A DNA stretch of 64,000 nucleotides from Candidatus Sulfopaludibacter sp. SbA3 (GCA_945893365.1 CAMDED010000012.1:1-64000), one strand, 5' to 3'. Numbered from the stretch's first letter, positions 33,849-54,591 are shown. Program-made: numbers and translations. The notes: generated by a model not told the origin, from the letters alone.

Positions 33849-33890
33849 GGTGATAGTATGACGCCAATCCCTGGGGTGGAAAACAAATCT

Positions 33891-36800
33891 ATGAATATAA
33901 AACGAACGATCGCGACGTCCAAGTTCGCTCTCGCGGCGTTGCTGCTGGCGAGTTCCGCATTCGCCCAGCGCGACTTGGGCACTATTCTCGGTACCATCAC
34001 GGACGCGCAAGGCGCCGTGATTACCGGCGCCAAGGTCACCATCTCCGAAGACGCCACCGGTCAAAGGTATCAAGTGGAGACAAACGACGCGGGCGAGTAT
34101 ATCCGCCCGCTGTTGAAGCCCGGCACCTATTCCGTGGAGGCGGAAGCGCCCGGTTTCAAGAAAACATTTCAGCGCGGCATCGGCCTTACGGCGGGGGACC
34201 GCCAGGCTCTGAACCTGCAACTGGCTGTCGGTGAAGTCACGCAGTCGGTCGAAATCACGGGCGCGGCCCCCGTTCTGCAAACCGAGAGCACGATCATCGG
34301 CCAGGCCGTGAATGCCAGAAACGTGAGCGAGCTGCCTCTGGGTGGGCAGCGCAAGTTCACCTATTTCGCGAGACTCTCGCCCGGCGTTCTGCCGGCTGAG
34401 CAGGGCGCGCGCGATACGGCGGGCGGCGGATTTGCCGCTAACGGCGTCCGCTCAAACGGGCAGAATAACTTCCTGCTCAACGGCGTGGACAACAACGTAA
34501 ACGTGATCGATTTCATCAATCAGACCGCCTACGTGATCGGACCGTCGGTCGAAGCCATCGGCGAGATGCGCATTCTCACCAATGGCTACAACGCCGAGTA
34601 CGGGCGCGGCGCGGGCGGCGTGGTGAACGTAACCATCAAATCCGGAACGAATGAGATTCACGGCGCGGCGTTCGAATTCCTGCAAAACGACAAGCTGGAT
34701 GCAAACCAGTGGGAATCGAACAAGGCCGGGAAGAGTCGTGGGCCGTTTAAGCAGAATCAGTACGGCATCGCGGCCGGCGCGCCCATCATCAAGAACCGCA
34801 CCTTCGTGTTCGCGGATTATCAGGGGACGAAGATCCGCTCGACGGGCGGCGCGGTGGCGGGGCTTGGCTCGACATTCATCGGAACGGTGCCTAAACCCGA
34901 GTTCAAGAACGGAGACTTCTCGAGTCTGCTCGGGAGCGTAATCGGAACCGATCCGCTGGGCCGCTCCGTGGCGCAGGGACAGATTTTCGACATACTCACG
35001 ACCCGCCCGAATCCGAGCGGCACGGGCTTTGTGCGCGATGCGTTTCCGGGGAACCAGATTCCGCTGAGCCGGATGGATCCGGTGGCGAAGAGGTTAGTGG
35101 ATCTGTTTCCGAGCCCGAACCAGAATCTTGCGCCCCGCCTCCCGGCCAGCAACTATTTCAACGTCGTCTCGGGGAAGGACGATATCCACCAGGGCGACCT
35201 TCGCCTTGATCACAGGATCAGCGACAAGGACAGCATCTTCGGCAGCCTGAGCTGGAGCGAAGAGCGTAAGTTCAACAGCCCTCCGCTTCCGGGCGCGCTC
35301 GACGCGGGCGGTTTCGCTGGACAGGACGAGACGAACCTGGCGCGCAACGCCATGATGAGTTACACCCGCGTCTGGACCCCGAACGTCCTGACCGAGACCC
35401 GCGCGGCGTTTACACGGCTGGTAACGGAGCGCGTCCAATCCAACTCCGACAAAGATCTCTTCAAGGAGTTTGGCATCGGCGGTTATAACCCGACCGGTCC
35501 GCTGAACGGCGGCTTGCCGCAGACGGTCATTCAAGGTTATCAGGGGATCGGCGCGGCAAACTGGCTGCCGACGAAGGAATACAACAACGTTTGGGACTTC
35601 ATCCAGAACGTTTCCGTCACCAAGGGACACCATGCCTTTAAGGCGGGCGGAGAGTACAGGCCGATCAAGTTTCCGTTCTTCCAGGTTCCAAACCCCCACG
35701 GGCAGTATACATTCAACCGCGATCGGACCAACCATCCGCAGAGCGCACTCCAGGCCGAGACAGGCGATGGCGTCGCCGCGTTTCTGCTGGGGTATCCGTC
35801 GAACGCTCAGATTTCCACGACGAATTTCATTTCGTCGGAAAAGCAGGCTTGGGCGTTCTATTTCCAGGACGATTGGAAGGTCTCGAGAAAGCTGACACTG
35901 AACCTCGGCATGCGGTATGAATTGTTTTCTCCGATCAGCGAAAGATTCGGCAGGCAATCGAACTTCGTGCTCGAAGACCTGACTCTTTACATCCCGAAGG
36001 GCAAGGATCAGGATGCGCCGCTGCCTCCGAACTTTGCCACCGCTTTCCCGAACGTGAAGGTTTCGCGAGGGGAAGTCGACAAGTACCTCATCAAGTGGGA
36101 CAAGACGAACTGGTCACCGCGCATCGGCATCGCTTACGCCCTGCAGCCGAAGACCGTGGTTCGCCTCGGCTACGGGATCTTCTACGGCGGCGAAGAGAAC
36201 CAGGGCGGATCGCCGAATCGTGGTGAATCCGTGCCGTTCAATGCAACCGTGGATCTGAATACCGGTACGAGGAGCAATTTCGAGCTGAATCCGTTCTTTG
36301 AAAACAGGACATACTCGTCCGGGTTCCCTTTGAACGTGTTCACGCAGCCCGCGCCGATTCAGTTCCGCGGCGTGTCGCCGAATTTCCGCAACTCGCTCGT
36401 GCACAAGTGGAACGTCGCCGTGCAACGCGAAATTGCGGCATCCACGACGCTCGAAGTCTCCTACATCGGCAACCACTCGGCGCGGCAGTTGCTGAACTGG
36501 GATCCGAACGGGGCGATGAATTCGCCCGATCCGAGCATTCCGGCCAACAGCTTGAGGCCGGTGCCGAATCTGGGGAGCATTTCGCAGTCGGCGTCATTCG
36601 GCTATGGTAACTATGCCGGGCTCGCGACGAAGCTCGAGAAGCGCTTCTCGAACGGGCTGGATTACCTGGTGTCCTACACTTATGGCCACGCGCTCGCGAA
36701 CACGGGCACGACGCTGTCGGGGTCTTCGGGCTGCTGCACGAAAAACCGCCGCAACATCGGCGAAGGCTACTCCAGCGCGGCGTGGGATTTACGCCACAAT

Positions 36801-37343
36801 TTAGTGAGCAGCGTGGTGTACGACGTTCCCATCGGCAAGGGCCGCAAGTTCCTCGGCGGCATCAGCAAGGCGGGCGATATGCTGATTGGTGGCTGGCAGG
36901 TCAACAGCCTCCTGTCGCTGCGCACGGGGCAGCCGTTTACGCTCGGCACGCGTAACTTTGTTGGACAGTTTGCCAACACGCTGCCCGACCTGGTGCCCGG
37001 CAAGAATCCGCAGTCCGCGCCGTCTGGCGGACGGTCGCCCGATCGCTACTTCGACATCACCGCTGTGACGCGGCCCGCGCCCGGAACCTACGGCACGCTG
37101 GGCTTGCAGAGCAATACCGCTCCTCCCCAAAAGAACCTGGATTTCTCGATGTTCAAGGATTTCCGCTTGAATGAGAGGATGAAGTTCCAGTTCCGCGGCG
37201 AATTCTTCAATCTGTTCAACACGCCGTATTTCGACGTGGGCAGCATTGGCCGCATCGAGGGAGACAGCAGCTTCGGCCGCATCGACCGGACCATCTCGGG
37301 AACCGAGAGGCACGTGCAGTTGGCCTTGCGGTTCATGTTCTAG
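33891..37343 (+). CDS. Oar-like TonB-dependent receptor 1
   Basis: The 1150-residue protein has a signal peptide (ALAALLLASSAFAQR). A carboxypeptidase-regulatory beta-sandwich (GTILGTITDAQGAVITGAKV, GTYSVEAEAPGFKK) comes next, then a plug with ANGVRSNGQNNFLLNGVDNN and GYNAEYGRGAGGVVNVTIKS. The large barrel ends in LALRFMF. This is the Oar-like group common in Solibacter-type bacteria, thought to import large organic compounds; the ligand is unknown. I chose ATG at 33891. The gap to the divergent CRTAC1 gene contains a -10-like GATAGTAT region. Confidence 0.92.
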   Translation: MNIKRTIATSKFALAALLLASSAFAQRDLGTILGTITDAQGAVITGAKVTISEDATGQRYQVETNDAGEYIRPLLKPGTYSVEAEAPGFKKTFQRGIGLTAGDRQALNLQLAVGEVTQSVEITGAAPVLQTESTIIGQAVNARNVSELPLGGQRKFTYFARLSPGVLPAEQGARDTAGGGFAANGVRSNGQNNFLLNGVDNNVNVIDFINQTAYVIGPSVEAIGEMRILTNGYNAEYGRGAGGVVNVTIKSGTNEIHGAAFEFLQNDKLDANQWESNKAGKSRGPFKQNQYGIAAGAPIIKNRTFVFADYQGTKIRSTGGAVAGLGSTFIGTVPKPEFKNGDFSSLLGSVIGTDPLGRSVAQGQIFDILTTRPNPSGTGFVRDAFPGNQIPLSRMDPVAKRLVDLFPSPNQNLAPRLPASNYFNVVSGKDDIHQGDLRLDHRISDKDSIFGSLSWSEERKFNSPPLPGALDAGGFAGQDETNLARNAMMSYTRVWTPNVLTETRAAFTRLVTERVQSNSDKDLFKEFGIGGYNPTGPLNGGLPQTVIQGYQGIGAANWLPTKEYNNVWDFIQNVSVTKGHHAFKAGGEYRPIKFPFFQVPNPHGQYTFNRDRTNHPQSALQAETGDGVAAFLLGYPSNAQISTTNFISSEKQAWAFYFQDDWKVSRKLTLNLGMRYELFSPISERFGRQSNFVLEDLTLYIPKGKDQDAPLPPNFATAFPNVKVSRGEVDKYLIKWDKTNWSPRIGIAYALQPKTVVRLGYGIFYGGEENQGGSPNRGESVPFNATVDLNTGTRSNFELNPFFENRTYSSGFPLNVFTQPAPIQFRGVSPNFRNSLVHKWNVAVQREIAASTTLEVSYIGNHSARQLLNWDPNGAMNSPDPSIPANSLRPVPNLGSISQSASFGYGNYAGLATKLEKRFSNGLDYLVSYTYGHALANTGTTLSGSSGCCTKNRRNIGEGYSSAAWDLRHNLVSSVVYDVPIGKGRKFLGGISKAGDMLIGGWQVNSLLSLRTGQPFTLGTRNFVGQFANTLPDLVPGKNPQSAPSGGRSPDRYFDITAVTRPAPGTYGTLGLQSNTAPPQKNLDFSMFKDFRLNERMKFQFRGEFFNLFNTPYFDVGSIGRIEGDSSFGRIDRTISGTERHVQLALRFMF

Positions 37344-37362
37344 TCCGCGCCGATTTCGAGAA

Positions 37363-37393
37363 AGGGGCAGGCCAAGCGGCTTGCCCTTTTTTT
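37363..37393 (+). terminator. Rho-independent terminator after TonB receptor 1
   Basis: GGGGCAGGCC and GGCTTGCCC form a hairpin around AAGC, followed by a run of seven T. It lies 20 bases after the receptor stop and separates it from the operon that starts at 37438. Confidence 0.85.
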
Positions 37394-37437: not shown

Positions 37438-38442
37438 GTGTTTGCGGTACTTTTTCTTCTTCTGTTCGCGGACCTGGCCGCGTTCGAAGCCAGATATCGC
37501 GAAGGGCTCAGCGCGTTAAACGCGGGGCAAGTGGCGTCTGCGCGGTCGAACCTCGAAGCGGCCCGTGCCATTCAGCCGGAGAACGCGAGGGTTTGGCTGG
37601 CGCTTGCGCAGACGTACGCCCGGGCCGGTGACCCGAAAGCGGCGGAAGAGGCCGCCCAAAAGACTGAGGTGCTGGCTCGCGGGGATGCTATCGTCACGCA
37701 AGCGCTTGCGTTCTACCGGAATCAGGTGGGCAAAGCGCTGGCGGATGCCGCCCAGTTGCGCGAAGCCGTGCGATTGAATCCGTACGAAGAGGCGTATCAC
37801 TTCGATTTGGCGCAAGCGCTGCTGCGTTCGGCGAAGTTCGGCGAAGCCATTCAATCGATAGAGGAGAGCCGGAAGGTCTTCGCGCGGAGTCCTCAGCTCG
37901 AGTTGGCGATGGGTGTCGCCTACTACGGCCAGCGCCGTTTTGAGGAGTCCGCCGGCGCGTTTCTTCGCGTGATTGCGCTTGCGCCGGCGATCGAGCAGCC
38001 GTATTTATTTCTGGCGAAGATGATCGATCAGACAGGTTTGCGTCTGCGTGAGGTTGCGGCCTCGTGCGAGGCGTTCGTGCGCGCGAATCCAACCCGCTAC
38101 GTGGCGCAATACGCGCACGCGAAAGCTCTGATCGCCCAGGGCAAGGATGGAGAGAAGCCGCTCCGGGAGTCGATCGCGCTTAACCCGAAGTTCGCTGGAA
38201 CGCGTTTCGAACTTGGTAATGTACTTGAGAAAAAGCGTCAATGGGAGGAGGCGGCGCGGGAGTTTGAGAGGTCCTCCGAGCTCGACCCGAAGGATCCCGC
38301 TCCGCACTACCGCCTCGCTCGAATCTACGAACGGCTGGGAAAGCGGGAACGGGCGCTCGCCGAGCGGGCGCGTCACGAAAGGCTCAGCGCGGAGGAAGCC
38401 GCGGGCATGGACCGTCACGTGACGGGTATCGCGATAAAATAG
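37438..38442 (+). CDS. Exported TPR-repeat protein
   Basis: The chosen GTG start at 37438 opens a signal segment (FAVLFLLLFADLAAFEA) directly after the terminator; longer in-frame starts lie inside the receptor gene. The 334-residue product is almost entirely TPR helices, for example LNAGQVASARSNLEAARAIQ, NARVWLALAQTYARAGDPKA, AYHFDLAQALLRSAKFGEAI and PAPHYRLARIYERLGKRERA. TPRs bind other proteins, so it may be a scaffold for products of the following genes. The next gene begins 20 bases after its stop. Confidence 0.85.
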   Translation: MFAVLFLLLFADLAAFEARYREGLSALNAGQVASARSNLEAARAIQPENARVWLALAQTYARAGDPKAAEEAAQKTEVLARGDAIVTQALAFYRNQVGKALADAAQLREAVRLNPYEEAYHFDLAQALLRSAKFGEAIQSIEESRKVFARSPQLELAMGVAYYGQRRFEESAGAFLRVIALAPAIEQPYLFLAKMIDQTGLRLREVAASCEAFVRANPTRYVAQYAHAKALIAQGKDGEKPLRESIALNPKFAGTRFELGNVLEKKRQWEEAAREFERSSELDPKDPAPHYRLARIYERLGKRERALAERARHERLSAEEAAGMDRHVTGIAIK

Positions 38443-38462
38443 ACACGGCATATTGAGACAAG

Positions 38463-39107
38463 ATGGACCGGCGTCAATTCCTAGCTTCCGCGCAACTCCT
38501 GCTGCCGAGCGATAAGCCCGATGAATTCGGCTTCCGCCTCATGTGGTTCAACCCCGTCAAGCCCATCGACCAGCGTGCCTACCGGTTGAAAGTCACGGGT
38601 CTGGTGGAGAAGCCGCTGTCGCTCGCGCTGCCCGAGCTGCGAAGGCTGCCGCAAGAGAAACAGAATTCCCGCATGAAGTGCGTGCAATGCTGGAGCGGCC
38701 GCGCGGAGTGGGGCGGATTCCGGTTCGGGCATTTGATCGAGATGGCGAAGCCTCGGAAAGCCGCGAAAGCCGTCCGGATCGACTGCGCGGATAAGTGGTA
38801 CGAATACTTCTCGCTTGAGGATCTGCTCTCGCCGCGCGTAATGATGGCGCTCGACATGGCCGGTAAGCCGCTGCCGGATCGCCATGGCGCGCCCGTGCGG
38901 TTGATCGATCCCGCGCGCTATGGGTACAAATCGGCGAAGTTGATTACCTCGGTGGAATTTGTGGCCGTAGGTAAGGGCAGCATGGCATGCGATATCGGCC
39001 CTTACTATTCGCCTGGAGGAGAAATTCTGGCGGGATACGATCATCCGCTCGACCTCGGCCCGAACGCACGGCGCAAGATCACAGGCGGCGAGATCACGGA
39101 GTACTGA
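38463..39107 (+). CDS. Sulfite-oxidase-fold molybdopterin protein, Tat-like N-terminus
   Basis: The 214-residue protein begins MDRRQFLASAQLLLP, a short Tat-like signal. The molybdopterin core contains YRLKVTGLVEKPLSLAL and SRMKCVQCWSG, where Cys73 is the likely Mo ligand, then RIDCADKWYEYFSLEDLL, HGAPVRLIDPARYGYKSAK and VEFV. This is the SuoX/MsrP catalytic domain without a dimerisation domain. It is an exported oxidoreductase for a small substrate, possibly sulfoxide or sulfite. The stop overlaps the next start by one base (TGATG). Confidence 0.88.
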   Translation: MDRRQFLASAQLLLPSDKPDEFGFRLMWFNPVKPIDQRAYRLKVTGLVEKPLSLALPELRRLPQEKQNSRMKCVQCWSGRAEWGGFRFGHLIEMAKPRKAAKAVRIDCADKWYEYFSLEDLLSPRVMMALDMAGKPLPDRHGAPVRLIDPARYGYKSAKLITSVEFVAVGKGSMACDIGPYYSPGGEILAGYDHPLDLGPNARRKITGGEITEY

Positions 39108-40255
39108 TGCAACCGGGAAAGCGGCGATTCGTACAACTCGCGGGTCTTTCCATCGCCGGACGAATCGTACCTGCCCCACTGCTCGACGCGGCGCGCGCAA
39201 AAGGCGGCGGCAAAGTCATCATCGTCACCTTCGGCGGCGGCGTCCGATACTCGGAAACCTTCGCGCCGGATGGACTGCGGAACATTCCGCGCCTGGTTCA
39301 AATGCGTCCCGAAGGACGCTTCTTCCGTACCTGCACCAACGCCGGCGTGCTGTCGCATTTCAATTCCACGGCAAGCATCGTGACAGGCAACTGGCAGCGC
39401 GTGGACGATTTCGGATTTCAGCCGCCTGCCGGCGCAACGCTGTTCGAGCAATACCGCAAACAGACGGGCGCGGGTCCCACGGATGTCTGGGCCATCGCGA
39501 CGAACAAGAGCTTCTCGGCGATCGGCGCAGGGTCTGACCGCGATCTGGGACTGCCATATGGCGCGAACGTTGTGTTGCCGAAGCAGCTTCTTCTCGAAGC
39601 TGTTCAGGAAGTCGTCAAGAAGTATCCTAGCCAGGGCGTCGCAAGCCGGGAAAACGTGCTGCGGCAGCTCGAAGGAATTCTCAATGAAGGGTACGAAGGG
39701 ATCGGCTGGACGATCTTCAAAGCCAGGAGGCAGCTTGACCGGCATGTGCGCGAGACGCTGACGCGGGCGCTGGTTGAATACGTGCATGGGCCGGAAGCGC
39801 CGTCTTCGGGCGATGAGCTGACGTTTTTCATTACGCGCGAGGTGATGCGCGAGTTTTCCCCGCGTCTCATCCTGGTGAATTTTTGGGACATGGATGTGGC
39901 GCATTGGGGGTCTTACTCGCTTTATCTTCAAGCCATCACGCGCACGGACCGTCTCACCGGAATGCTGTGGGATGAGATTCAAGGCCAGCCGGCGTATAAG
40001 GACAAGACCACAATGCTCGTCCTGCCGGAGCTCGGCCGTGACGGCGACCAAAACACCGCGAACGGGTTTCTGAATCATCGCAGCGGCGATGCCTCATGCC
40101 GCACCATGTGGATGCTCGCCATGGGCGCGGGTGTGATGAAGGGCGAGACGGAGCGCCCCGTGTCTCACGTGGACGTGGCGGCGACGGCTGCGGAGCTGCT
40201 TGGCGTGAAGCCCGGCGAGATGGCCGGACGGGCAATCGGAGACCTGCTTTCATAA
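39107..40255 (+). CDS. Alkaline-phosphatase-superfamily (sulfatase/DUF1501-like) protein, Tat-like
   Basis: The 382-residue protein starts KRRFVQLAGLSIAGRIVPAP, a Tat-like signal. The fold markers are VIIVTFGGGVRYSE, ILVNFWDMDVAHWGSYSLYL, MLVLPELGRDGDQN, and SHVDVAATAAELLGV near the end. These match the alkaline-phosphatase superfamily in its DUF1501-like form, but a clear catalytic Ser/Thr or formylglycine site is not visible. Its role is unknown. The TAA overlaps the next ATG by one base (40255). Confidence 0.72.
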   Translation: MQPGKRRFVQLAGLSIAGRIVPAPLLDAARAKGGGKVIIVTFGGGVRYSETFAPDGLRNIPRLVQMRPEGRFFRTCTNAGVLSHFNSTASIVTGNWQRVDDFGFQPPAGATLFEQYRKQTGAGPTDVWAIATNKSFSAIGAGSDRDLGLPYGANVVLPKQLLLEAVQEVVKKYPSQGVASRENVLRQLEGILNEGYEGIGWTIFKARRQLDRHVRETLTRALVEYVHGPEAPSSGDELTFFITREVMREFSPRLILVNFWDMDVAHWGSYSLYLQAITRTDRLTGMLWDEIQGQPAYKDKTTMLVLPELGRDGDQNTANGFLNHRSGDASCRTMWMLAMGAGVMKGETERPVSHVDVAATAAELLGVKPGEMAGRAIGDLLS

Positions 40256-41463
40256 TGGCGGCCGCGGTTTCACCAGTGCTCGAACGGGCGATCACCGGCG
40301 GAGTATTCGATCGCCTGCCGGTCACCTTCGGAACGTTCGTCTTCGATCAGGTGAAGGACTGGGACCGGCTTTTTCCCGCGGAGAAGAGCTACTTTGAACG
40401 CCTGTTTGGATTGCTTGAGCGGTCCGAGCCGAAGACGGTAGACGGGCTCTTCACGTCACTGCGCACCGCCGAACAATCGATGGGCGTGAACGAGAAGGTA
40501 TGGCCCAAGCGGCAGTTCACCCTGGACCAGGTGGATTTTCTCAATCGTAACCCGCAATACCCGCAATGGCGGCGCGCCGTGGCCGAGATTTTCGCGAAGC
40601 TCGATCCGCTGCTCGACGAAGAGGTCGCGCGCAAGGGACGGCCAAGGCTCGTGGTCGTGGTGTCGCCGGCAGAGTTGCCAGTGGGCCCCGACCGCATGTG
40701 GCTCCGCCTAAGGGCGCACGGGCGTCGCGTGCCGGTGGAGCAGACGGAGCGGTTGCTTGCGGGATTTCGCGCGCTTGCGGCGGCCGCGGCGGCGAAGGCG
40801 CAGTCGCGCTACGATACGTGGATCGTCGCCGCGGGCGACTCGGACGCCCTGCCGGGCGCGGTGTCGATGAGTTACGAGCGCCTCGCGGCCTATCGCACCC
40901 GCCTGATGGGCGAAGTCAACCGGCTGGTGCGCGCGGAGGACATTAAAGGGCCGCGCCAGCTCGGCGCAAGGTTGAAGGAGTTGAGAATCTCGGCTCAGGA
41001 AGCCGCGATAGCAGACGATCCCGTTCTGGCTGAGTTCGTGCGGGCCGTGCTGCTGGCGGGCAACGGCACTTTGTTGATCAACAACACCTTCGCCGAATGG
41101 GCCACGGTACAGGCAGTGCGCCGCGCCCGGCCCACGGTGGCGATCGTCGGATTCGGAATCCGCAACAAGGTGAAGCCTTTCTCGAGCCTGCTGATCTATG
41201 CGGATCAGGAGGCGACGAATCCCATTCCCACGCAGATGGACACACTCGGATCGTATGTGGATCTCGAGGTGTTCTATCAATACTTGTGGCAGGAGTTCGA
41301 GAAGTATGCGGAGTACCGCCGCAACACGGCGTATCTGTTCGTCGCGGAACAGATGGACGAAATGTTCCTGATCGCTCCTCCGGATTTTCCCTTACCGGCG
41401 GCGGCCGCTCCGATCGGCATGCCGCGGGTTTTCGACCATGCGAAGGCGTGGTTGAACCTGTGA
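40255..41463 (+). CDS. Conserved operon protein of unknown function
   Basis: The 402-residue protein has no signal peptide and no domain that I recognise. Notable segments are VTFGTFVFDQVKDWDRLFPA, LFTSLRTAEQSMGVNEKVWP, RLVVVVSPAELPVGPDRMWL, GNGTLLINNTFAEWATVQAV, and FVAEQMDEMFLIAPPDFPLP near the end. It is long, clean and translationally coupled on both sides (one-base overlap before, GTGA after), so it is real and part of the operon. It would be a good target for structure prediction. Confidence 0.75.
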   Translation: MAAAVSPVLERAITGGVFDRLPVTFGTFVFDQVKDWDRLFPAEKSYFERLFGLLERSEPKTVDGLFTSLRTAEQSMGVNEKVWPKRQFTLDQVDFLNRNPQYPQWRRAVAEIFAKLDPLLDEEVARKGRPRLVVVVSPAELPVGPDRMWLRLRAHGRRVPVEQTERLLAGFRALAAAAAAKAQSRYDTWIVAAGDSDALPGAVSMSYERLAAYRTRLMGEVNRLVRAEDIKGPRQLGARLKELRISAQEAAIADDPVLAEFVRAVLLAGNGTLLINNTFAEWATVQAVRRARPTVAIVGFGIRNKVKPFSSLLIYADQEATNPIPTQMDTLGSYVDLEVFYQYLWQEFEKYAEYRRNTAYLFVAEQMDEMFLIAPPDFPLPAAAAPIGMPRVFDHAKAWLNL

Positions 41464-44400
41464 ATCGACGCGGATTCCTTGGAGCCGCCGTCGTTGGGAC
41501 GTGCGTGCGTCCGAACCTGCGCGCGCAGCCGGCGAAGTTTCCCGTTCGTTTCCGTAAACCGCCGCCGTACGCGGAGGCCCTCAGCCATATCGAGCCGGGC
41601 TCGGACGAGTTCGCGTGCGAGCGGCTTGCCGCCGAGGTGAATGCGAGCCTGGGCCGGCTCTTGCAGACGGGGTCTCTACCGCTCGCGCCGGAGTTTCGCG
41701 GCGCTTCGCCGGCGCCACTACGATATTCCGCGGTGGCGGATGGCGTGACAAAAGCGGAGTTCGGTGGGATGGACTCTCAGTCTGCCGCCACTTTCGCCGG
41801 CGAGCTTAAGAAGTGGGTCGAGTCCCTCGGCAAAGTGCGCAGCTCGCGATTTCACGTGCTCGCGGGCGGCGTGGTTCGCTACGAAATCGCCGCCGGGTTG
41901 CAGTATCGGGTGGGACGCTGGAAGCTCGGATGGAATGATACAAAACTGACGAGTTTCGAGCCTCTCGAAGAAATCGTCACAACTACGCCGAAGCCGCTGT
42001 TTCGCGACGTCACGGCGCACGCCTTCGGCGCCAACGCGTCTTTTCGGGAGCAGATGCTGCGCGGCGTGCCCTACTGGCGGGCGCGGATCGATTCCGCCGC
42101 CGGCATCGACGTCTACGGGAACAACGGAATCGCCGTCGGAGATGTCGACAACGACGGGTGGGACGAGGTCTACGTCTGCCAGCCCGGCGGCTTGCCGAAT
42201 CGCCTATATAAGAATCGCGGCGACGGACGCTTCGACGACGTCACGGACAAGGCGGGCGTGAGCGTCCTGGACGACACGGCGTCGGCGCTGTTCGTCGATT
42301 TCCGCAATGCGGGTTTGCAGGACCTGGTGGTACTGCGCGCTTCGGGGCCTCTGCTGTTCGTGAATCAGGGCGATGGAACTTTTCGCCCGAAGGACGATGC
42401 TTTCCGTTTCGGTACGCAGCCGCAGGGCGCATTCACAGGCATGTCGGCGGCGGATTACGATCGCGACGGCCGCGTCGATCTCTACCTGTGCAGCTACGTC
42501 TATTTCCAGAGCGAGGATCAGTATCGCTATCCCGCGCCCTATCACGATGCGCGCAACGGTCCCCCCAACTTCCTGTTTCGTAACACGGCGGACGGCGTGT
42601 TTGAAGACGTTACCGCGGCCGTGGGCCTGGGCGAGAACAACGATCGTTACAGTTTCGCGGCGGCCTGGTGCGACTACGATGGCGACGGTTGGCCGGACTT
42701 GTACGTCGCCAACGACTTCGGCGTGAACAACCTCTACAAGAACGAAGGCGGGCGCTTCCGTGACGTTGCCGCTGCCGCCGGGGTAGAAGATCTGGGGCCT
42801 GGAATGTCCGCTGCCTGGTTCGACTACAACGGCGACGGCCGTCCCGATCTCTACGTGTCGAACATGTGGAGCGCGGCGGGACAGCGCGTGGCGGACGACC
42901 CGGCCTTCGCGCTTCCACGCGCGCCGTATAAGCGGCACGCCAAGGGCAACTCGCTCTTCCGGAATCGCGGTGACGGGACGTTTGAGGAAACGCCCGGCGT
43001 CGAGATGGGCCGATGGGCGTGGTCGGCCGACGCGCACGATTTCGACAACGACGGCGCGCCGGAGATTTACTGCACCTGCGGAATGCTGACGAATTCATCG
43101 GACAGGGACCTGATGAGTTTCTTCTGGCGTCAGGTCGTGGCGCGGTCGCCCGCCGAAGCGAAGCCTCAACCTGAATACGAGAACGGATGGAATGCGATCA
43201 ACCAGCTGATTCGCGAAGACTATAGTTGGAACGGTCGTGAGCCGAATGTTTTTTACGCGCAAAGGAATGGCAAGTATTACGATTTCTCCGGTGTGAGCGG
43301 GCTCGATTACGCCGACGACAGCCGCGCGTTCGCCGTCACCGATATGGATGGCGACGGCAACCTGGATATTCTGCTCAAGAGCCGCCTCGGCCCGCAAGTA
43401 CGGGCGCTGCACAACGACTGCGGAAGCGCCGGACGGTCTCTCGGAATCGTTCTTCGCGGGACGAAGTCGAATCGCGATGGCATTGGGGCGCGCGTTGAGG
43501 TGGATGGTCAGGTAAACTTCGTGCAAGCCGGCTCCGGGTATCTCTCGCAGCACACGAAGACGCTGTACTTCGGGTTGCGCGGACGCCCAGGCGCGCGGCG
43601 GGTGCGGATCGACTGGCCATCCGGAACGAAGCAACAGTTCGCGGGACTTGAAGCGTCGCACCTCTACGAGATCGAAGAGGGTTCGGGACAGATCCGGAAG
43701 TCCGCGATGCGCGCGCACCGCGCCGTTGCCGGGAGTGTGCCTCTCAGGGCGGATAACCGGCCGCGCGCCACCGAGACGTGGATGCTCGACCCCGTTCCGC
43801 TGCCTGTTGCACGAACCGGACCCGGTTTGGTGCGGCTAACCGCCGAGGATTTGCGGACTGAGCCTGAAGAAACGGCTGCCGCTTTTGCGCTTTTCCGGCG
43901 CTACCTGTTCGATTGGCGCACGGAGCTCGAACTGCCCGCCGCGTACTTGATTGACGAGCGCGGAATGGTTCACAAGTTCTATCCTGTAATGCCCGGCGAA
44001 GCCAAAGTTCGCGAAGATCTGGTGAAGATGCGCGGCGCGGACAGGGAGAAGTTGGCATTGCCCTTCGCCGGCCGGTACGTGACGCGGCCGCACCGGAACT
44101 ACTTTCGGCTTGGCGCGGCGTTTCAGAATGCCGGGTATCCCGAACCTGCGCTGCGGTATCTGGCGGAGACATTGAAAAGCGCGCCGGAGAATGTTGTGGC
44201 ATTGCTCGCTGTGGGGCAGCTTGAACTGGAGGCGGGGCGTCATGAACGGGCGCGAGGCTATCTGGAAAAAGCGCTTCGCCTGCGGCCCGAATCCGCTAGC
44301 GGGTGGAACAATTTGGGAGGCGTGGAACTGGCGGCGGGAAATCCGCTGGCCGCGCTGCGGCACTATGAGAAGGCGCTACGCTTTCAGCCGGTCTTCACGC

Positions 44401-44762
44401 ATGCGGAGATGAATGCGGCCGAGGCGGAGAATCAGATCGGGTTGGACTTCGCGCGGCAGGGCCGGACCGCTGATGCCCGCGCCGCCTTCGAGCGGGCCAT
44501 CGCGCGCAGGAAGGATCATGCCGGCGCGATCAACAACCTCGGCGTGTTGTACATGCAAATGGAACATACGAACGACGCTACGGCTGCGTTTCAGTACGGG
44601 ATCTCGGTCGCGCCGCAAGACGATATACTGTACATCAACCTCGCGAAGGTTCATGCGCGAAGGGGCGACCGTGACAAGGCCGCCGCCGTGTTGCTCAAGC
44701 TGCTTGATCTGAAGCCCGGGCATGCGGTGGCGCGGCGCGCGCTGGAGGAGTTGAGTAAATGA
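41460..44762 (+). CDS. FG-GAP / ASPIC-UnbV / redoxin-like / TPR fusion protein, Tat-like
   Basis: GTG at 41460 (GTGA overlap) opens a Tat-type signal, NRRGFLGAAVVGTCVRP. The 1100-residue protein then has an N-terminal region without a known domain (to about 200) and FG-GAP loops (VGDVDNDGWDEVY, AADYDRDGRVDLY, WCDYDGDGWPDLY, WFDYNGDGRPDLY, VTDMDGDGNLDIL). An ASPIC/UnbV domain follows (GARVEVDGQVNFVQAGSG, LYFGLRGRPGARRV). A remnant like the C-terminal half of a redoxin (LELPAAYLIDERGMVHKFYP) precedes at least eight TPR helices to the end. This large calcium-binding multi-domain design is a hallmark of this operon. Confidence 0.87.
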   Translation: MNRRGFLGAAVVGTCVRPNLRAQPAKFPVRFRKPPPYAEALSHIEPGSDEFACERLAAEVNASLGRLLQTGSLPLAPEFRGASPAPLRYSAVADGVTKAEFGGMDSQSAATFAGELKKWVESLGKVRSSRFHVLAGGVVRYEIAAGLQYRVGRWKLGWNDTKLTSFEPLEEIVTTTPKPLFRDVTAHAFGANASFREQMLRGVPYWRARIDSAAGIDVYGNNGIAVGDVDNDGWDEVYVCQPGGLPNRLYKNRGDGRFDDVTDKAGVSVLDDTASALFVDFRNAGLQDLVVLRASGPLLFVNQGDGTFRPKDDAFRFGTQPQGAFTGMSAADYDRDGRVDLYLCSYVYFQSEDQYRYPAPYHDARNGPPNFLFRNTADGVFEDVTAAVGLGENNDRYSFAAAWCDYDGDGWPDLYVANDFGVNNLYKNEGGRFRDVAAAAGVEDLGPGMSAAWFDYNGDGRPDLYVSNMWSAAGQRVADDPAFALPRAPYKRHAKGNSLFRNRGDGTFEETPGVEMGRWAWSADAHDFDNDGAPEIYCTCGMLTNSSDRDLMSFFWRQVVARSPAEAKPQPEYENGWNAINQLIREDYSWNGREPNVFYAQRNGKYYDFSGVSGLDYADDSRAFAVTDMDGDGNLDILLKSRLGPQVRALHNDCGSAGRSLGIVLRGTKSNRDGIGARVEVDGQVNFVQAGSGYLSQHTKTLYFGLRGRPGARRVRIDWPSGTKQQFAGLEASHLYEIEEGSGQIRKSAMRAHRAVAGSVPLRADNRPRATETWMLDPVPLPVARTGPGLVRLTAEDLRTEPEETAAAFALFRRYLFDWRTELELPAAYLIDERGMVHKFYPVMPGEAKVREDLVKMRGADREKLALPFAGRYVTRPHRNYFRLGAAFQNAGYPEPALRYLAETLKSAPENVVALLAVGQLELEAGRHERARGYLEKALRLRPESASGWNNLGGVELAAGNPLAALRHYEKALRFQPVFTHAEMNAAEAENQIGLDFARQGRTADARAAFERAIARRKDHAGAINNLGVLYMQMEHTNDATAAFQYGISVAPQDDILYINLAKVHARRGDRDKAAAVLLKLLDLKPGHAVARRALEELSK

Positions 44763-44995
44763 CAAGCGCATTCGTGCTGATGTTGGCCGTGAGCGGCGAT
44801 CTGGAAAAGTTAACGAAAGCGGTAGCGAATTCAGGGCGCGTGACCGAACTTGCGGCGAAGCCTTCAGAACGCCTCGCGCCGCCTGAGCGGATCGCGCCCG
44901 GCGCGCCGCCTCTGCTGAGTTTTCGTTTGTTCGAAGGCGGACAGCGGCACCGTTTCGGGAATCTGGATTTGGTTCTGGACGATGCGAGCCATTAG
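44759..44995 (+). CDS. Small operon protein, 78 residues
   Basis: ATG at 44759 overlaps the previous stop (ATGA), and the stop overlaps the next gene by 14 bases. The N-terminus MTSAFVLMLAVSGDLEKLTK is moderately hydrophobic, and the rest is Pro-rich (RLAPPERIAPGAPPLL). No family is recognised. The coupling supports it, but a short frame of this kind could also be a chance bridge between neighbours. Confidence 0.45.
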   Translation: MTSAFVLMLAVSGDLEKLTKAVANSGRVTELAAKPSERLAPPERIAPGAPPLLSFRLFEGGQRHRFGNLDLVLDDASH

Positions 44996-45989
44996 CCGTG
45001 CCTTCACCGGACTCACCGCTGTGTGCGCCTTTGGGCAGGACGTGGGCACCGGCGTCGAACAGTTCCACAAGGGGCAGTATGCGGCGGCGCGGCAGACTCT
45101 GGAGCGTGCGCTAAAGGACTCTCCGGGCGACGCGCACTCGACAACCTTTCTGGCTCTCTCGCGCGCGGCAACCGGAGGATGCAAGGAAGCGGCGCCGGCG
45201 CTCGCCGCGCAATTCAACTCGGGTGCGGGCGACCTGCGGAGGCTTGCAGGCGTCGGCCTCGCGCAATGCCATCTCGCCGGGAGCCGGTTCGACGAAGCAT
45301 ACCCGGTCATCCAAAAGTTGGAGGAGCAGAATCCAGCCGACGCCGATGTGCTCTATCTCTCGGCAAAGCTGCACATGAGGGCATGGAACGGTGCGGTGTA
45401 TCGAATGTTCCAGAAAACTCCCGCGTCGTACCGCGTGAATCAGTTGTCGGCGGAGATTCTGGAGATCCAGGGAAAGTACGCCGAGGCGGCTGCCGAGTAT
45501 CGAAAGGCCATCTCGAAAAACCCCGCGGCGGTGAACCTGCACTACCGTCTAGGGCGCGCTCTGTTGATGGAGTCGCACGCGCCCGAGGCGCTCGATGCGG
45601 CGCGAAAGGAATTCGAGGCGGAGCTGGCGCTCAATCCGTCCGATGCCGCCGCGGAGTATCAAGTGGGGCAGATCCTGGCCGCGAAGGAGAACGATACGGA
45701 GGCGGCAGTGCACTTCGCCCGCGCTTCGGAACTTGCGCCGGACTTCCCGGAAGCTCTCGTGGCGCTGAGCAAACTGCGCGCGGGCGATGAAGCCGTCGCA
45801 TTGCTTGAGCGCGCCGTCCGGCTACAGCCTGCAAACGAGGCCGCGCGTTACAGCTTGATGTTGGCCTATCGCAAGGCGGGCCGGGCTGCGGATGCCTTGC
45901 GGCAGAAGGAAGAGCTGGACAAGCTGCAAAAGCCTCCCGAGGGTGAGTTTACGGAGTTCCTGAAGAAGCTGGGAGAGAAGCCGAAGTGA
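44982..45989 (+). CDS. TPR-repeat protein, probably exported
   Basis: The 335-residue protein starts MRAISRAFTGLTAVCAFGQD, a weak signal peptide, and then has TPR helices throughout: FHKGQYAAARQTLERALKDS, EILEIQGKYAEAAAEYRKAI, AVNLHYRLGRALLMESH and AAEYQVGQILAAKENDTEAA. It resembles the TPR protein at 37438 in plan, so the operon encodes several TPR scaffolds. Its stop overlaps the last gene by four bases (GTGA at 45986). Confidence 0.85.
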   Translation: MRAISRAFTGLTAVCAFGQDVGTGVEQFHKGQYAAARQTLERALKDSPGDAHSTTFLALSRAATGGCKEAAPALAAQFNSGAGDLRRLAGVGLAQCHLAGSRFDEAYPVIQKLEEQNPADADVLYLSAKLHMRAWNGAVYRMFQKTPASYRVNQLSAEILEIQGKYAEAAAEYRKAISKNPAAVNLHYRLGRALLMESHAPEALDAARKEFEAELALNPSDAAAEYQVGQILAAKENDTEAAVHFARASELAPDFPEALVALSKLRAGDEAVALLERAVRLQPANEAARYSLMLAYRKAGRAADALRQKEELDKLQKPPEGEFTEFLKKLGEKPK

Positions 45990-47605
45990 GAGCTCTCGCC
46001 GCCCTGGTGTTCTCCGTGGTTCTGGCGGCGCAGTTCGAAAACACCTCCCGCCGGGCCGGCCTCATCCACTCAATTCCAAACGGCGGCGTCGACTCGAAGC
46101 GATTCATCATTGAGACTACCGGCAGCGGGGCCGCGTTCATCGACTATGACAACGATGGCTTTTTAGACGTCTTCCTCGTCTCCGGCGGAGGCGGCACAAG
46201 CCGTCTCTACCACAACAACGGCAAGGGCGCCTTCGACGAGGTGACCGCGCAGGCCGGATTCACGCGCGACGGCTGGGGGCAGGGCGTGTGCGCGGGCGAT
46301 TTCGATAACGACGGCTTCACCGATCTCTTCGTCACTTATTGGGGCCGGAACGCCCTCTACCGCAACCGCGCCGGCAAGTTCTTCGAAGACATAGCGGCGC
46401 GTTCGGGCCTCACGCAGAACCGCATCCGTTACAACACCGGCTGTGCGTTTCTCGACTACGATAACGACGGAAGACTCGACCTGTTCGTGGCCAACTACCT
46501 CAAGTTCGATCCGGCTACGACTCCCAAGCCCGGCGAGAATCCCTACTGCTGGTATCGCAACATCCCCGTAAACTGCGGTCCGCGCGGGCTTCCGTTCGAC
46601 CGCAATATTCTGTATCGCAACGAGGGCGCGGGCGTGTTCCGCGATGTTTCGGAAGAATCGCGAATCGCCAAGCCGTCGCAGCATTACGCGCTCGGCGTGC
46701 TGACGGGCGATTTCAATGACGACGGTTTCACCGACATCTATGTCGCGTGCGACCAGACGCCGTCGCTGCTCTACATGAATCGCGGCGACGGAACATTCTC
46801 CGAAGAAGCCCTGCTGCGCGGCGTGGCGCTCGACGAGAACGGGAAGGCGCTCTCCGGCATGGGCGCGGCTTCGGCGGACTACGATGGCGACGGCTGGCCC
46901 GACATTTTCCGCACCAACTTCAGCGACGAGCGCGAAACGCTCTATCGCAACCTCGCCAAAGGCGAATTTGAGGATGTGACGCGCGGCGCGGGCCTTTCGC
47001 GTAACACGCGGTTCGTCGGGTGGGGCTGCGGCTTTTTCGATTTCGACAACGACGGATGGCAGGATCTGCTTCTCGTCAACGGACACGCCTTTCCCGAAGT
47101 GGAGAAACTCAAGCTCGACATCCGCTACAAGGATCGCGCCATACTGTACCGCAATACGGCTGGCGGGAAGTTCGACGATGTCTCCGATGCATCGGGGCCG
47201 GGCATTCTAGAGCGGCACTCCGCCCGTGGCGCGGCGTTCGGAGACATCCACAACGACGGTTCGGTTGAAGTACTAATCAACAATCAGAACGAGCCGCCCA
47301 CGCTCCTGGAGCGCGCCGGCAAACCGCGGAACAACTGGATCATCCTGAAGTTGACCGGCAGTCGTGCAAACCGCGGCGCCATCGGGGCGCGCGTCAAAGT
47401 CACGGCTGGCGGGCGGACGCAAACCGGCGAAGTCCGCAGCGGCGGCAGTTACCTGTCACAGAGCGATCTGAGGCTGCATTTTGGACTCGGCAGCGCTCCG
47501 AAGGTGGACGAGGTGGAAGTTCGCTGGCCTGGAGGCGCGACGCAAATTGTACGCAACCTGCGCCCGAATCGTGTGACCGCGATCACGGAGACGGCGCGGC
47601 CGTAG
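45986..47605 (+). CDS. CRTAC1-type FG-GAP / ASPIC-UnbV protein, exported
   Basis: GTG at 45986 overlaps the TPR gene stop. The 539-residue protein has a signal peptide (RALAALVFSVVLAAQ) and FG-GAP loops (FIDYDNDGFLDVF, AGDFDNDGFTDLF, FLDYDNDGRLDLF, TGDFNDDGFTDIY, SADYDGDGWPDIF, FFDFDNDGWQDLL). It ends in an ASPIC/UnbV domain (GARVKVTAGG, LHFGLGSAPKVDEVEVRWP). It is closely related to 32142-33848. It is the last gene of the coupled string. Confidence 0.9.
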   Translation: MRALAALVFSVVLAAQFENTSRRAGLIHSIPNGGVDSKRFIIETTGSGAAFIDYDNDGFLDVFLVSGGGGTSRLYHNNGKGAFDEVTAQAGFTRDGWGQGVCAGDFDNDGFTDLFVTYWGRNALYRNRAGKFFEDIAARSGLTQNRIRYNTGCAFLDYDNDGRLDLFVANYLKFDPATTPKPGENPYCWYRNIPVNCGPRGLPFDRNILYRNEGAGVFRDVSEESRIAKPSQHYALGVLTGDFNDDGFTDIYVACDQTPSLLYMNRGDGTFSEEALLRGVALDENGKALSGMGAASADYDGDGWPDIFRTNFSDERETLYRNLAKGEFEDVTRGAGLSRNTRFVGWGCGFFDFDNDGWQDLLLVNGHAFPEVEKLKLDIRYKDRAILYRNTAGGKFDDVSDASGPGILERHSARGAAFGDIHNDGSVEVLINNQNEPPTLLERAGKPRNNWIILKLTGSRANRGAIGARVKVTAGGRTQTGEVRSGGSYLSQSDLRLHFGLGSAPKVDEVEVRWPGGATQIVRNLRPNRVTAITETARP

Positions 47606-47607
47606 GC

Positions 47608-47623
47608 CAGGCCTCCCGGCCTG
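47608..47623 (+). terminator. GC hairpin at the end of the eight-gene operon
   Basis: CAGGCC and GGCCTG form a perfect six-base stem around TCCC three bases after the last stop. There is no T run, so it is a weak candidate terminator. It lies between two converging genes. Confidence 0.35.
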
Positions 47624-47674
47624 TCCGCGGACCATCGGACCACCTCCGCCCAAGCGTCTACTGAAGGAACCTTT

Positions 47675-48147: not shown

Positions 48148-49773
48148 ATGAATATGGCACAGCAACTATGGAATCTCCCGATTCTTTCACTTCTGTTTGG
48201 CGCGATGGCCGAGGCTCAAGTGACTCCTGGTTTTGTGGATCCCGCGCCCGTCTTACTGGCTGCCGAAAAAGCGATTGGCGCCGGCAACCTGAAATGCGTC
48301 ACGATCTCCGGCTCCGGCTACTCGGGCAAGGTGGGTCAACAGGTCGAATCCGGCTGGAACGTGGATTGGCCGCGAGGCGAAGCGCTGGCCGGCTACACGC
48401 GCACTATGAACTGGGAAACGCGAACGATGAAAGAGGAGTTCGACCGCGCGCCCGGCCTGAATCCGGCGTCCTGGAAATATGGTTCCGGTTGGAAGGGCGG
48501 AACGCCTGTCCAGCGCAACGCGCACCAGACATTCGCGGTGAACGGTAAGCACGCTTGGCACATCGACGGACGGGGAAACAGCCCGGTTGCCGCTCCTCCA
48601 GACGACGCTGAGCGGTGGCAGCTCGATCTTTGGGTGAATCCGCATGGCTTTCTCAAGGCGGCCAGGCTGCCCGGCGCAAATCCAAAGGCAGTGTGGCGGT
48701 GGGAGTTGGGAGAAATGGGGCGTGATGGACACACAGTGGCGCCTGAAAAAGTAACCGTGGTCTCGATTACGGTACTTGGCAAGTACAGAGTGGATGCCAC
48801 CATCAACAAGGAGAACCTGCTCCAGCGAATTCATACATGGGTGCCCGATCCCGTTCTGGGCGACATGAACTACGAGCACGAATTCACGAACGAAAGCTAC
48901 GTGGACCTGGGCAACGGCATGAAGTTCCCCACCGGATGGCATCATCACGACGGCTGGGATGACAACTTCGGAGCCCTCACGGTTACCGCCGGTCACAATG
49001 GTTTCGGCGGAACCTTCAAGAGCATCCAGGCGAATGCGTGCGCGGACTCGATCCCGATCCCTGAGACTGTGCGTCAGGCCGCATTTCCCGTGCGCGTCGA
49101 CGCGCAGAAGCTCGCGGAAGGAGTATTCCTGCTCGGCGGCGCGTCGCACAATAGCGTCGCCATCGAGTTCAAGGACTTCATTACGGTTGTCGAAGCGCCA
49201 CTCGACGAACGGCGGAATCTCGCCGTGATCGAGGAGATTGTGAAGCTGATTCCTAATAAGCCCATTCGCTTCCTGGTCAACACGCATCAGCACTTCGACC
49301 ACATTGGTGGTCTTCGCACCTACATGCACATCGGCGCGACCATCATCACGCATTGGAAGAACCTGAACTTCTACATGCGGGACGTGTTGAACTATGCGCC
49401 ACGGACTTTGGAGCCCGACATGATGGCTTCCTGGCCGCCGACGGAGGTAGCGGAGGGCTACCATTATGAGACCGTCAGGGAGAACTACGTCTTGAGCGAC
49501 GGTGTGCGAAACCTGCACATCACCTACGTCCAGCCGCTGGCGCACGTCGAGGGCATGTTGCTGGCGTACCTGCCGAAGGAGAAGATTGCGATCGAGGCGG
49601 ACCTCTATGATCCACAGCTCGCGAACGCTCCCTCGACGCCGACGGCCGCCAACAGGACCTTCTACAATCACGTGCGCCGGCTGGGGCTCGACGTCTCGAC
49701 GATCGCCCCCATTCACGGACGTGCGACGCGGTGGAGTGAGTTTGCGAAAGTAATGGGGAGCGGTATGCCATGA
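48148..49773 (+). CDS. MBL-fold metallo-hydrolase, exported
   Basis: The 541-residue protein has a signal segment (LWNLPILSLLFGAMAEA) and a long N-terminal region that I do not recognise (residues about 25-310). The C-terminal MBL domain has VFLLGGASHNSVAIEF, LVNTHQHFDHIGGLRTYM (the HxHxDH zinc site), QPLAHVEGMLLAYLP (His) and IAPIHGRATRW (His). These residues are complete, so it is probably active. Start ATG at 48148 follows GGAAGG. The gap 48014-48147 holds no gene. Confidence 0.86.
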   Translation: MNMAQQLWNLPILSLLFGAMAEAQVTPGFVDPAPVLLAAEKAIGAGNLKCVTISGSGYSGKVGQQVESGWNVDWPRGEALAGYTRTMNWETRTMKEEFDRAPGLNPASWKYGSGWKGGTPVQRNAHQTFAVNGKHAWHIDGRGNSPVAAPPDDAERWQLDLWVNPHGFLKAARLPGANPKAVWRWELGEMGRDGHTVAPEKVTVVSITVLGKYRVDATINKENLLQRIHTWVPDPVLGDMNYEHEFTNESYVDLGNGMKFPTGWHHHDGWDDNFGALTVTAGHNGFGGTFKSIQANACADSIPIPETVRQAAFPVRVDAQKLAEGVFLLGGASHNSVAIEFKDFITVVEAPLDERRNLAVIEEIVKLIPNKPIRFLVNTHQHFDHIGGLRTYMHIGATIITHWKNLNFYMRDVLNYAPRTLEPDMMASWPPTEVAEGYHYETVRENYVLSDGVRNLHITYVQPLAHVEGMLLAYLPKEKIAIEADLYDPQLANAPSTPTAANRTFYNHVRRLGLDVSTIAPIHGRATRWSEFAKVMGSGMP

Positions 49774-50669: not shown

Positions 50670-50972
50670 TCAATCCCCTTCTGATCGGGGACCTTGCTTG
50701 TCGACGGCTCGGTACAGGTAAACCCATTCGCCGCGCACCTTGACGTAGGTCTCATCCATCCGCCATGAGTCGCCGACCGGGCGAGCGTACCGCTTCCAGC
50801 GCTTCTCGAATTCCGGCGTGTGATACTATACCCATCGCAGAATCGTCGTGTGCGCCAGCCTGATGCCGCGCTCGCTCATCATCCTGACCAAATCCCGGTA
50901 GCTCAGTTTGAAACTCAGGTACCACCGAACGCACAACACCACAATCTCCGCATCGAAATGGCGACCGGCGAA
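50670..50972 (-). pseudogene. IS6-family transposase fragment
   Basis: On the minus strand the sequence reads FAGRHFDAEIVVLCVRWYLS, then FKLSYRDLVRMMSERGIRLA, HTTILRWV, a stop at 50826-50828, and YHTPEFEKRWKRYARPVGDS, WRMDETYVKVRGEWVYLYRA, VDKQG. This is clearly the first half of an IS6 transposase, including DETYVKVRG with the first catalytic Asp. It is broken by a TAG and cut off after about 100 residues, so it is dead. The stretch 50973-51408 upstream holds no gene that I can support. Confidence 0.85.
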
Positions 50973-51408
50973 CAATTCATCAACTGGAACTAATCGGGAC
51001 AATCCACCATCTTCGCCGACACCGTTGATCTTGCACCAGAGCCATATGGCGGACCTTTTGCTGAATGCTGCTGCCAGCCCAAAGGAGTACGACAAATTCC
51101 GCGATTCACGAACTTCTCTCCGAAAAATGACAACCTGTTGACAGAACTGCACACGCACGGCGACAGCCGCCAGCATCGCCGCCTTCCGTGTTGGCCGGCA
51201 TTCGCAGGTCCAAGGCGGAAGTTGTCGAATTTCCATGGTCATTGAGTTTGTCTACGCATAGCGGTCGGAGGGTCACAGTCTGAGGGCTGCCGGCGACGAG
51301 GATGTGCAAAGTCTAGACGCCGCAGAGTTCAGGCAAAAGCAAGTCCGGGACGCACGCTCGCATTCGGTTGCGATGTATACTGCCTCTAACCTGGAAGGTA
51401 AGAATAAA

Positions 51409-54400: not shown

Positions 54401-54591
54401 ACTTCTCGGCGTTCCGCAGCTTCAAGGTCACCGAACGCGCGAAGGTGCAGTTCCGCGCGGAGTTTTTCAACCTGTTCAACCACGCCAATCTGACGAATCC
54501 GGTGTCAAATATCAGCTCGGCGACGGTGGGGCGGATTCAGAGCACGACCGACCCGCGGATCATGCAGTTCGGTTTGAAACTGATTTACTAA
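51409..54591 (+). CDS. Oar-like TonB-dependent receptor 2
   Basis: The 1060-residue protein is built like receptor 1. It has a signal peptide (FSKAFLALLICPAGLMAQ), a carboxypeptidase-regulatory domain (GAIVGVVQDKSGAIVSGASV), a plug (VNGARGIANNYMLDGGDNND, AEYGRNSGAVVNAITRAG) and a barrel ending in QFGLKLIY. I chose TTG at 51409 because GGAAGG lies just upstream and a -10-like TATACT lies before that; ATG at 51373 is the alternative. The PhoD-like gene starts two bases after its stop, so the receptor may import a phosphoester or its organic part. Confidence 0.92.
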   Translation: MFSKAFLALLICPAGLMAQSTGAIVGVVQDKSGAIVSGASVTVTSELTGLKNTTAADDAGRFSFPRLPVGNYRLEAVQQGFRQFVVDGIRLDSDQTRHADVSLQVGQVSESVNVSGAVALVETVGGTIKEIVDQRRMVDLPLNGRNPLQLQLLVAGAVPSTGTVSLGQNTAISVNGARGIANNYMLDGGDNNDPLTNTASLLPNPDALEEFSILTNNYSAEYGRNSGAVVNAITRAGTNQLHGGLYEFLRNDTLDSRNFFALQKSKLRRNQFGATLGGPVYIPKLHNGRDRTFFFFSFEGVRDRKGDTLSNLVVPTALERSGDFSQSTLKPLDPVTRVRFPNDAIPANRFDPAAAKFIEVMVPLPNTADSRHIFNRPITQDSNQIMGRVDHMATAKQRIMVRYFYDWSNQFLTAGLPKLQSTVGFNTYHLVANHTYTIGPSLLNTAQFSFGRVDLKRGPLPVEGGITYQSLGMRVVSDTPEYPQNWRGSVTGFWNLAQDNLVYIDRKTPQFSDTVSWIRGPHMVKFGGEVRTTVSDRLTANLTDPQFTFNGQFSTNPLADFLLGRPNVMNQGSLRKNEARSRAFSLFMQDDWKVRRNLTLSLGLRYDPFFPFYDAADQFSVFRPGVQSTVFPSAPAGLLYVGDSGVTRGGSPNDWNNFAPRFGFAWTPLKGSKTSVRGAYGIFYDTPRHYTLTAFANTQPYSLQFNINTPPSFADPYAGRAIPFPFKPPSAAEEKRAFRYTFPVVIGESVDPKLAAAYSQQWNLNIQQQAPGQVVLSAGYVGAKGTRLTTQRELNPGVFGPGATTGNIDARRIYAPAFGSINSYDSIGCSTYHALQLGVNKRFSHGVSVNGNYTYGKSIDDASLDEAAAYQNPLNLKPEKALSNYDVRQRFVTSFLWETPAPKTGAGKSLLGGWQWNGIVTIQSGSPFNVASGRDQALIGTGTQRPNLVGDPHLDTGRSRDELLFRYFDSAAFAQAPLGAFGNSGKNTLIGPGSYFFDFSAFRSFKVTERAKVQFRAEFFNLFNHANLTNPVSNISSATVGRIQSTTDPRIMQFGLKLIY

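Follow-up and report, generated by a model that had tools for sequence, protein, structure and literature searches.

Gene layout of the locus

We analyzed a 64,000-nt stretch of DNA from Candidatus Sulfopaludibacter sp. SbA3 (GCA_945893365.1 CAMDED010000012.1:1-64000), referred to here as the window; all coordinates are window positions. The genome that contains it comprises 7.88 Mb in 299 contigs. Eight plus-strand genes occupy positions 37438 to 47605, and each open reading frame listed in the initial annotation was found at its reported position (Table 1). Direct reading of the junctions confirmed the described overlaps of 1 base at 39107 and 40255, 4 bases at 41460, 44759, and 45986, and 14 bases at 44982. 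TPR1 and MPT are separated by a 20-base gap. Wrong start choices had been raised as a possible source of these overlaps. The assigned starts are supported by relatives, with AP and U402 overlapping or lying at most 20 bases apart in 68 of 97 loci, a count that includes 2 artefacts of N-filled gaps (at -1230). The fixed stoichiometry that had been read from these gene overlaps does not follow from them.

Table 1. Genes of the locus and the upstream Oar gene (window coordinates)
Gene	Position	Strand	Description	Basis and features
Oar	33858..37343	+	Oar-type outer-membrane beta-barrel gene (CarboxypepD_reg + OMP_b-brl_4)	PF25183 E 6.5e-231; PF13620
TPR1 (gene 1)	37438..38442	+	TPR protein	Pfam TPR models; GTG start; Sec-like hydrophobic N-terminus
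MPT (gene 2)	38463..39107	+	Small molybdopterin (sulfite-oxidase-fold) protein	PF00174 E 9.1e-32; RR-x-F-L N-terminus
AP (gene 3)	39107..40255	+	Tat-like alkaline-phosphatase-superfamily protein; first half of conserved pair	VIA; conserved residues
U402 (gene 4)	40255..41463	+	402 residues; predicted degenerate alkaline-phosphatase fold; second half of conserved pair	VIA; hhalign
FGTPR (gene 5)	41460..44762	+	FG-GAP repeats + ASPIC + cysteine-free middle segment + TPR	RR-x-F-L N-terminus
s78 (gene 6)	44759..44995	+	Small protein without family, Sec-like N-terminus; marker of second module	
TPR2 (gene 7)	44982..45989	+	TPR protein	Pfam TPR models; Sec-like N-terminus
CRTAC (gene 8)	45986..47605	+	FG-GAP + ASPIC protein	Pfam; GTG start; Sec-like N-terminus

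For genes 1 and 7 (TPR), gene 2 (PF00174), gene 5 (FG-GAP, ASPIC, and a TPR end), and gene 8 (FG-GAP and ASPIC), Pfam searches agreed with the earlier family assignments. No family in Pfam or NCBIfam scored above the cut-off for genes 3, 4, and 6. A segment of gene 5 had been described as redoxin-like; Pfam gave nothing for it even at E 10, and its aligned relatives have no cysteine in common. Residues ~745-890 of FGTPR, located between the ASPIC and TPR parts, form a conserved segment that is free of cysteine, contains an LPLxLLIDxxGxxxK(I/V)Y-like motif, and matches no Pfam family. AP, U402, and s78 are each present in a single copy in this genome, and FG-GAP/ASPIC genes are present in many.

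The leading terminator was borne out as a hairpin with a U-run at 37358-37393 (+) (-25.4 kcal/mol, z -5.75), which had escaped a simple terminator scan. The GC hairpin described at the 3' end is present at 47600-47630 (+), but it is modest (-19.7 kcal/mol, z -2.2) and a T-run is absent. The upstream neighbor of the eight genes, omitted from the initial annotation, is an Oar-type barrel gene whose homologues recur beside these genes in other loci. Because the terminator follows the Oar gene, this gene is probably transcribed separately from the eight genes. The genome is rich in Oar-type barrels, with PF25183 matching at least 65 times. Divergent from the Oar gene, at 32142-34151 (-), lies a second FG-GAP/ASPIC (CRTAC1-like) gene, and several relatives have similar minus-strand CRTAC genes upstream of the AP-U402 pair.

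AP and U402 are paired across Acidobacteria

Among 101 unique loci, 95 have AP directly upstream of U402 in the same orientation; in the remaining 6, AP was not detected next to U402. Conversely, across 396 sampled genomes of the phylum, U402 adjoins all 35 AP loci with E <1e-90, compared by eye. Of 200 genomes sampled from the family to which the window belongs, 77 contain U402. A pattern-based scan across a species-wide genome collection identified 145 relatives, and all 80 loci that were kept are titled as Acidobacteria or groups within it. The pair occurs in tandem in five loci (L123, L124, L135, L136, and L143), and three loci contain two opposed pairs (L129, L138, and L154). In L104, a rare break of the pair, AP and U402 are apart, with AP, MPT, TPR, and Oar on the opposite strand. 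Candidate natural AP-U402 fusions, considered as proof of contact, were rejected, as the open frames in L069, L157, and L161 run through N-filled assembly gaps.

The gene order as a whole is not unique to this genome; uniqueness was an outcome that the initial annotation had named as refuting its proposal. All eight genes occur in the same order in L034, whereas L031, L032, and L043 preserve part of it, the rest being lost or cut off by the end of a contig. The unit that is conserved across the phylum is the AP-U402 pair, which is smaller than the eight genes.

AP has an alkaline phosphatase fold and an unusual putative active site

AP belongs to the alkaline phosphatase superfamily by fold, as indicated by all 50 VIA rows and by Foldseek (E 1.5e-9). 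Its closest solved relative in VIA is PafA (Z 29.2, 2.8 A, 301 aligned residues, 14% identity). At the sequence level, AP falls below the Pfam cut-offs for DUF1501, Sulfatase, and Phosphodiest (Sulfatase, 11.5 bits versus 25). Membership in DUF1501 was rejected, with 0 matches among 26 members at E 1.

Alignment of AP relatives revealed that H84, H266, and H324 are invariant and that D261 is conserved in 98%. Invariance is complete or nearly so for D261, H266, H324, E308, G310, R311, D312, and K134. At the position of the candidate nucleophile, S90, 48 of 54 sequences have Ser and 6 have Ala. Judged by motif order and spacing rather than by coordinates, AP appears to lack both the Asp of strand 1 and the D-H-G His, and E-x-G-R-D is found where D-H-G is expected. 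AP resembles PafA and other superfamily members (sulfatases, NPP) in its whole fold, and its motif positions retain one Asp, two His, and in most cases a Ser. It differs from PafA in its low identity, in lacking a detectable strand-1 Asp and D-H-G His, and in having an obligate-looking partner gene. The complete two-metal ligand set with a Ser/Thr/Cys nucleophile was not found in AP. With these two residues seemingly missing and S90 variable, an intact two-metal mechanism is unlikely, and part of the usual site has seemingly been lost. An altered or single-metal site is possible. For the same reasons, AP itself may not be a hydrolase.

A related explanation is that neither AP nor U402 is catalytic and that together they constitute a unit of the cell surface with a binding or structural role. 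The apparent losses in the AP site and the Ala at position 90 in six sequences are consistent with this explanation, as are the neighboring genes, which encode mostly binding and scaffold folds. However, the (near-)invariance of D261, H266, H324, E308, R311, and D312 suggests a metal or active site under selection, and we consider a wholly non-catalytic pair to be unlikely.

U402 is a predicted degenerate relative of AP

U402 had been described as an unrecognised protein. Sequence searches of Pfam, NCBIfam, and the PDB yielded no significant match to U402, but it has relatives, and it is an alkaline-phosphatase-fold protein without conserved histidines that is homologous to AP by profile. The AlphaFold model of U402 has a pLDDT of 91.4. 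Foldseek alone gave a weak result (best E 0.011, none <0.001), with most of the listed matches in the alkaline phosphatase superfamily; the fold call was therefore made from a second look with VIA and from hhalign. In VIA, residues 127-402 matched sulfatases, PafA, NPP, EptC, and YejM with Z scores of 12.7-14.6, and 50 of 50 rows were members of the alkaline phosphatase superfamily. Residues 1-126 are helical and matched no known fold. Profile-profile comparison of U402 with AP using hhalign gave a probability of 95.6 over 238 columns, a value to be read with the caution due to single-pair probabilities.

No histidine is conserved at 80% or more in either alignment of U402; the overall alkaline phosphatase fold is present, and the metal-binding histidines are not. 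Based on the VIA fold, the hhalign homology, and the absence of conserved histidines compared with three invariant ones in AP, we conclude that U402 is a predicted degenerate relative of AP. Our reading of the model and alignments is that U402 is an apparently inactive pseudoenzyme partner of AP. The periplasmic domain of YejM/PbgA has been described as a pseudo-hydrolase of the alkaline phosphatase superfamily. It resembles U402 in having a degenerate alkaline phosphatase fold, and 6vat and 6xlp are among the VIA matches of U402. In contrast, YejM is membrane anchored and stands alone, whereas U402 is paired with its relative and has no evident membrane segment or signal.

Proposed export of the AP-U402 pair

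The N-terminus of AP resembles an atypical Tat signal with a short hydrophobic stretch. In a simple motif count, which is not a signal predictor, a K/RR-x-hydrophobic N-terminus was found in 79 of 94 AP sequences versus 9 of 103 U402 sequences. An evident export signal or membrane segment was not found in U402.

One explanation for this asymmetry is that U402 acts as a dedicated cytoplasmic chaperone, similar to a Tat proofreading protein, which would bind AP prior to export and stay behind. The genes of Tat proofreading chaperones commonly adjoin those of their substrates. The strict pairing of a signal-less protein with a partner that has a Tat-like signal would fit such a role. However, U402 has the fold of its partner rather than that of a known Tat chaperone family, and no chaperone family in Pfam or NCBIfam matched it. 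We regard a chaperone role as rather unlikely.

Alternatively, U402 may leave the cell together with AP. Signal-less partners are co-exported as Tat hitchhikers in PaoABC and hydrogenase 2 (PMC4273604). Because the combination of a signal-less protein with a neighboring, Tat-like partner is the pattern seen in hitchhikers, we propose that AP and U402 form an exported heteromer. PaoABC and hydrogenase 2 are cofactor-bearing redox enzymes, whereas AP and U402 are relatives within one hydrolase superfamily whose co-export is a prediction.

Neighboring genes and a second module

We then compared the surroundings of the pair in 68 loci of at least 15 kb with 40 control regions of 20 kb, using tblastn at the same cut-off. 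Homologues of Oar (74% of loci versus 25% of controls), FG-GAP/ASPIC (65% versus 0%), TPR (57% versus 0%), MPT (35% versus 0%), and s78 (16% versus 0%) were more frequent near the pair, with enrichment p-values that are optimistic because the controls were hand-picked positions in a subset of genomes without matching by clade and because the loci are themselves related.

The frequency of Oar near the pair raises another route for U402, which could be exported otherwise than with AP, for example across the outer membrane via the neighboring Oar barrel. There is a precedent in Myxococcus, where secretion of the signal-less protease PopC depends on Oar (PMC6434023). Oar is nevertheless missing from some loci and abundant in the genomes, and the pairing of AP with U402 is far stricter. 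We consider this route highly improbable.

When mapped on the U402 tree, the presence of MPT changes state 3 times and is found mainly in one clade, which includes the window. FG-GAP/ASPIC changes 16 times in presence and 24 times in position, with absences of neighbors partly due to short contigs. The association lasts while the order reshuffles. Of 200 family genomes, 53 contain the single-copy marker s78, and U402 is also present in 49 of these (Fisher 7e-22); by genus, the co-occurrence is 27 of 31 (1e-9), with neither value corrected for shared ancestry. In 22 genomes besides that of the window, s78 is located within 25 kb of U402. The eight genes look like two co-occurring modules that rearrange, present in the same genomes and often in the same region. 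The second, separable module consists of FGTPR-s78-TPR2-CRTAC and moves independently of AP-U402.

It is also conceivable that the wider gene set is a loose neighborhood, in which abundant FG-GAP/ASPIC, TPR, and Oar genes lie beside AP-U402 without shared function. Their high genomic copy numbers, variable order, and frequent absences would be expected in that case. However, the 40 control regions contained 0 homologues of FG-GAP/ASPIC, TPR, or MPT at the same cut-off, and s78 co-occurs with U402 at both the genome and the genus level. On balance, chance proximity seems improbable.

MPT resembles MsrP and other sulfite-oxidase-type proteins in its match to PF00174 (110.4 bits versus a cut-off of 24) and in having a Cys in the expected stretch. 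Unlike MsrP, it scores 84.2 bits against an NCBIfam cut-off of 207 and is only 214 residues long. The initial annotation proposed an exported oxidoreductase or surface assembly. The notion of a conserved, mostly exported multi-gene locus holds, but an oxidoreductase as its core is without support because the molybdopterin gene is largely limited to one clade. The region as a whole is similar to SusCD-type loci, in which a TonB-type outer-membrane barrel lies beside TPR proteins and exported enzymes. It differs from them in that no SusD model matched TPR1 or TPR2, whose matches are to TPR models, and in that the eight genes include no glycoside hydrolases.

Proposed role of the AP-U402 module

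Our best overall explanation, which we hold tentatively, is that AP and U402 form a two-protein module that is co-exported via Tat and acts outside the inner membrane with its neighbors. The gene pairing, fold, homology, and absence of conserved histidines on which this explanation builds are supported by the analyses above. In this model, U402 would bind AP in the cytoplasm, where it could stabilize AP or shape its probably altered, perhaps single-metal, active site. U402 would then hitchhike out of the cell with AP through Tat. Once past the inner membrane, AP-U402 may act on a substrate bearing a phosphate, sulfate, or similar ester, which would be handled by the Oar-type outer-membrane transporter and the co-encoded TPR and FG-GAP/ASPIC proteins. 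In the clade of the window, the small molybdopterin protein would have been added to the AP-U402 module, and FGTPR-s78-TPR2-CRTAC would accompany it as the separable second module.

The Oar, TPR, and FG-GAP/ASPIC neighbors suggest that AP-U402 may work at the outer envelope and that its substrate may be one that is transported or bound. Taken with the pairing, this suggests a two-part surface enzyme in soil Acidobacteria, composed of AP and its degenerate relative. A bolder version is doubtful. In it, the two proteins would form an obligate enzyme-pseudoenzyme heterodimer, with the signal-less pseudo-half co-exported via Tat alongside its signal-bearing relative, and this heterodimer would be central to a surface machine, widespread in Acidobacteria, that also includes Oar, TPR, and FG-GAP/ASPIC proteins.

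To our knowledge, members of the alkaline phosphatase superfamily are mainly homodimers and monomers, and the pairing of a member with a signal-less degenerate relative is new, although the pieces themselves are of known kinds. If true, our proposal would add an enzyme-pseudoenzyme pair to the superfamily. The earlier remark was that no described system with this gene set was known, and searches of open-licence literature found no description of it; in a 2011 paper on Solibacter, ASPIC/UnbV is named as one of the duplicated genes. The low-copy, alignable AP-U402 pair offers a handle on the large and unexplained FG-GAP/ASPIC, Oar, and TPR families of these bacteria. Because Acidobacteria are plentiful in soil and difficult to grow, it is useful to have a marker locus that can be put to a clear biochemical test.

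Other genes in the window

Just 3' of the eight genes, positions 48148-49773 (+) encode a metallo-beta-lactamase-fold protein with a long N-terminal part. A short ORF at 50826-51242 (-) resembles, by eye, a fragment of an IS6-type transposase. Two more Oar-type barrel genes are located at 51304-54591 and 58151-61327.
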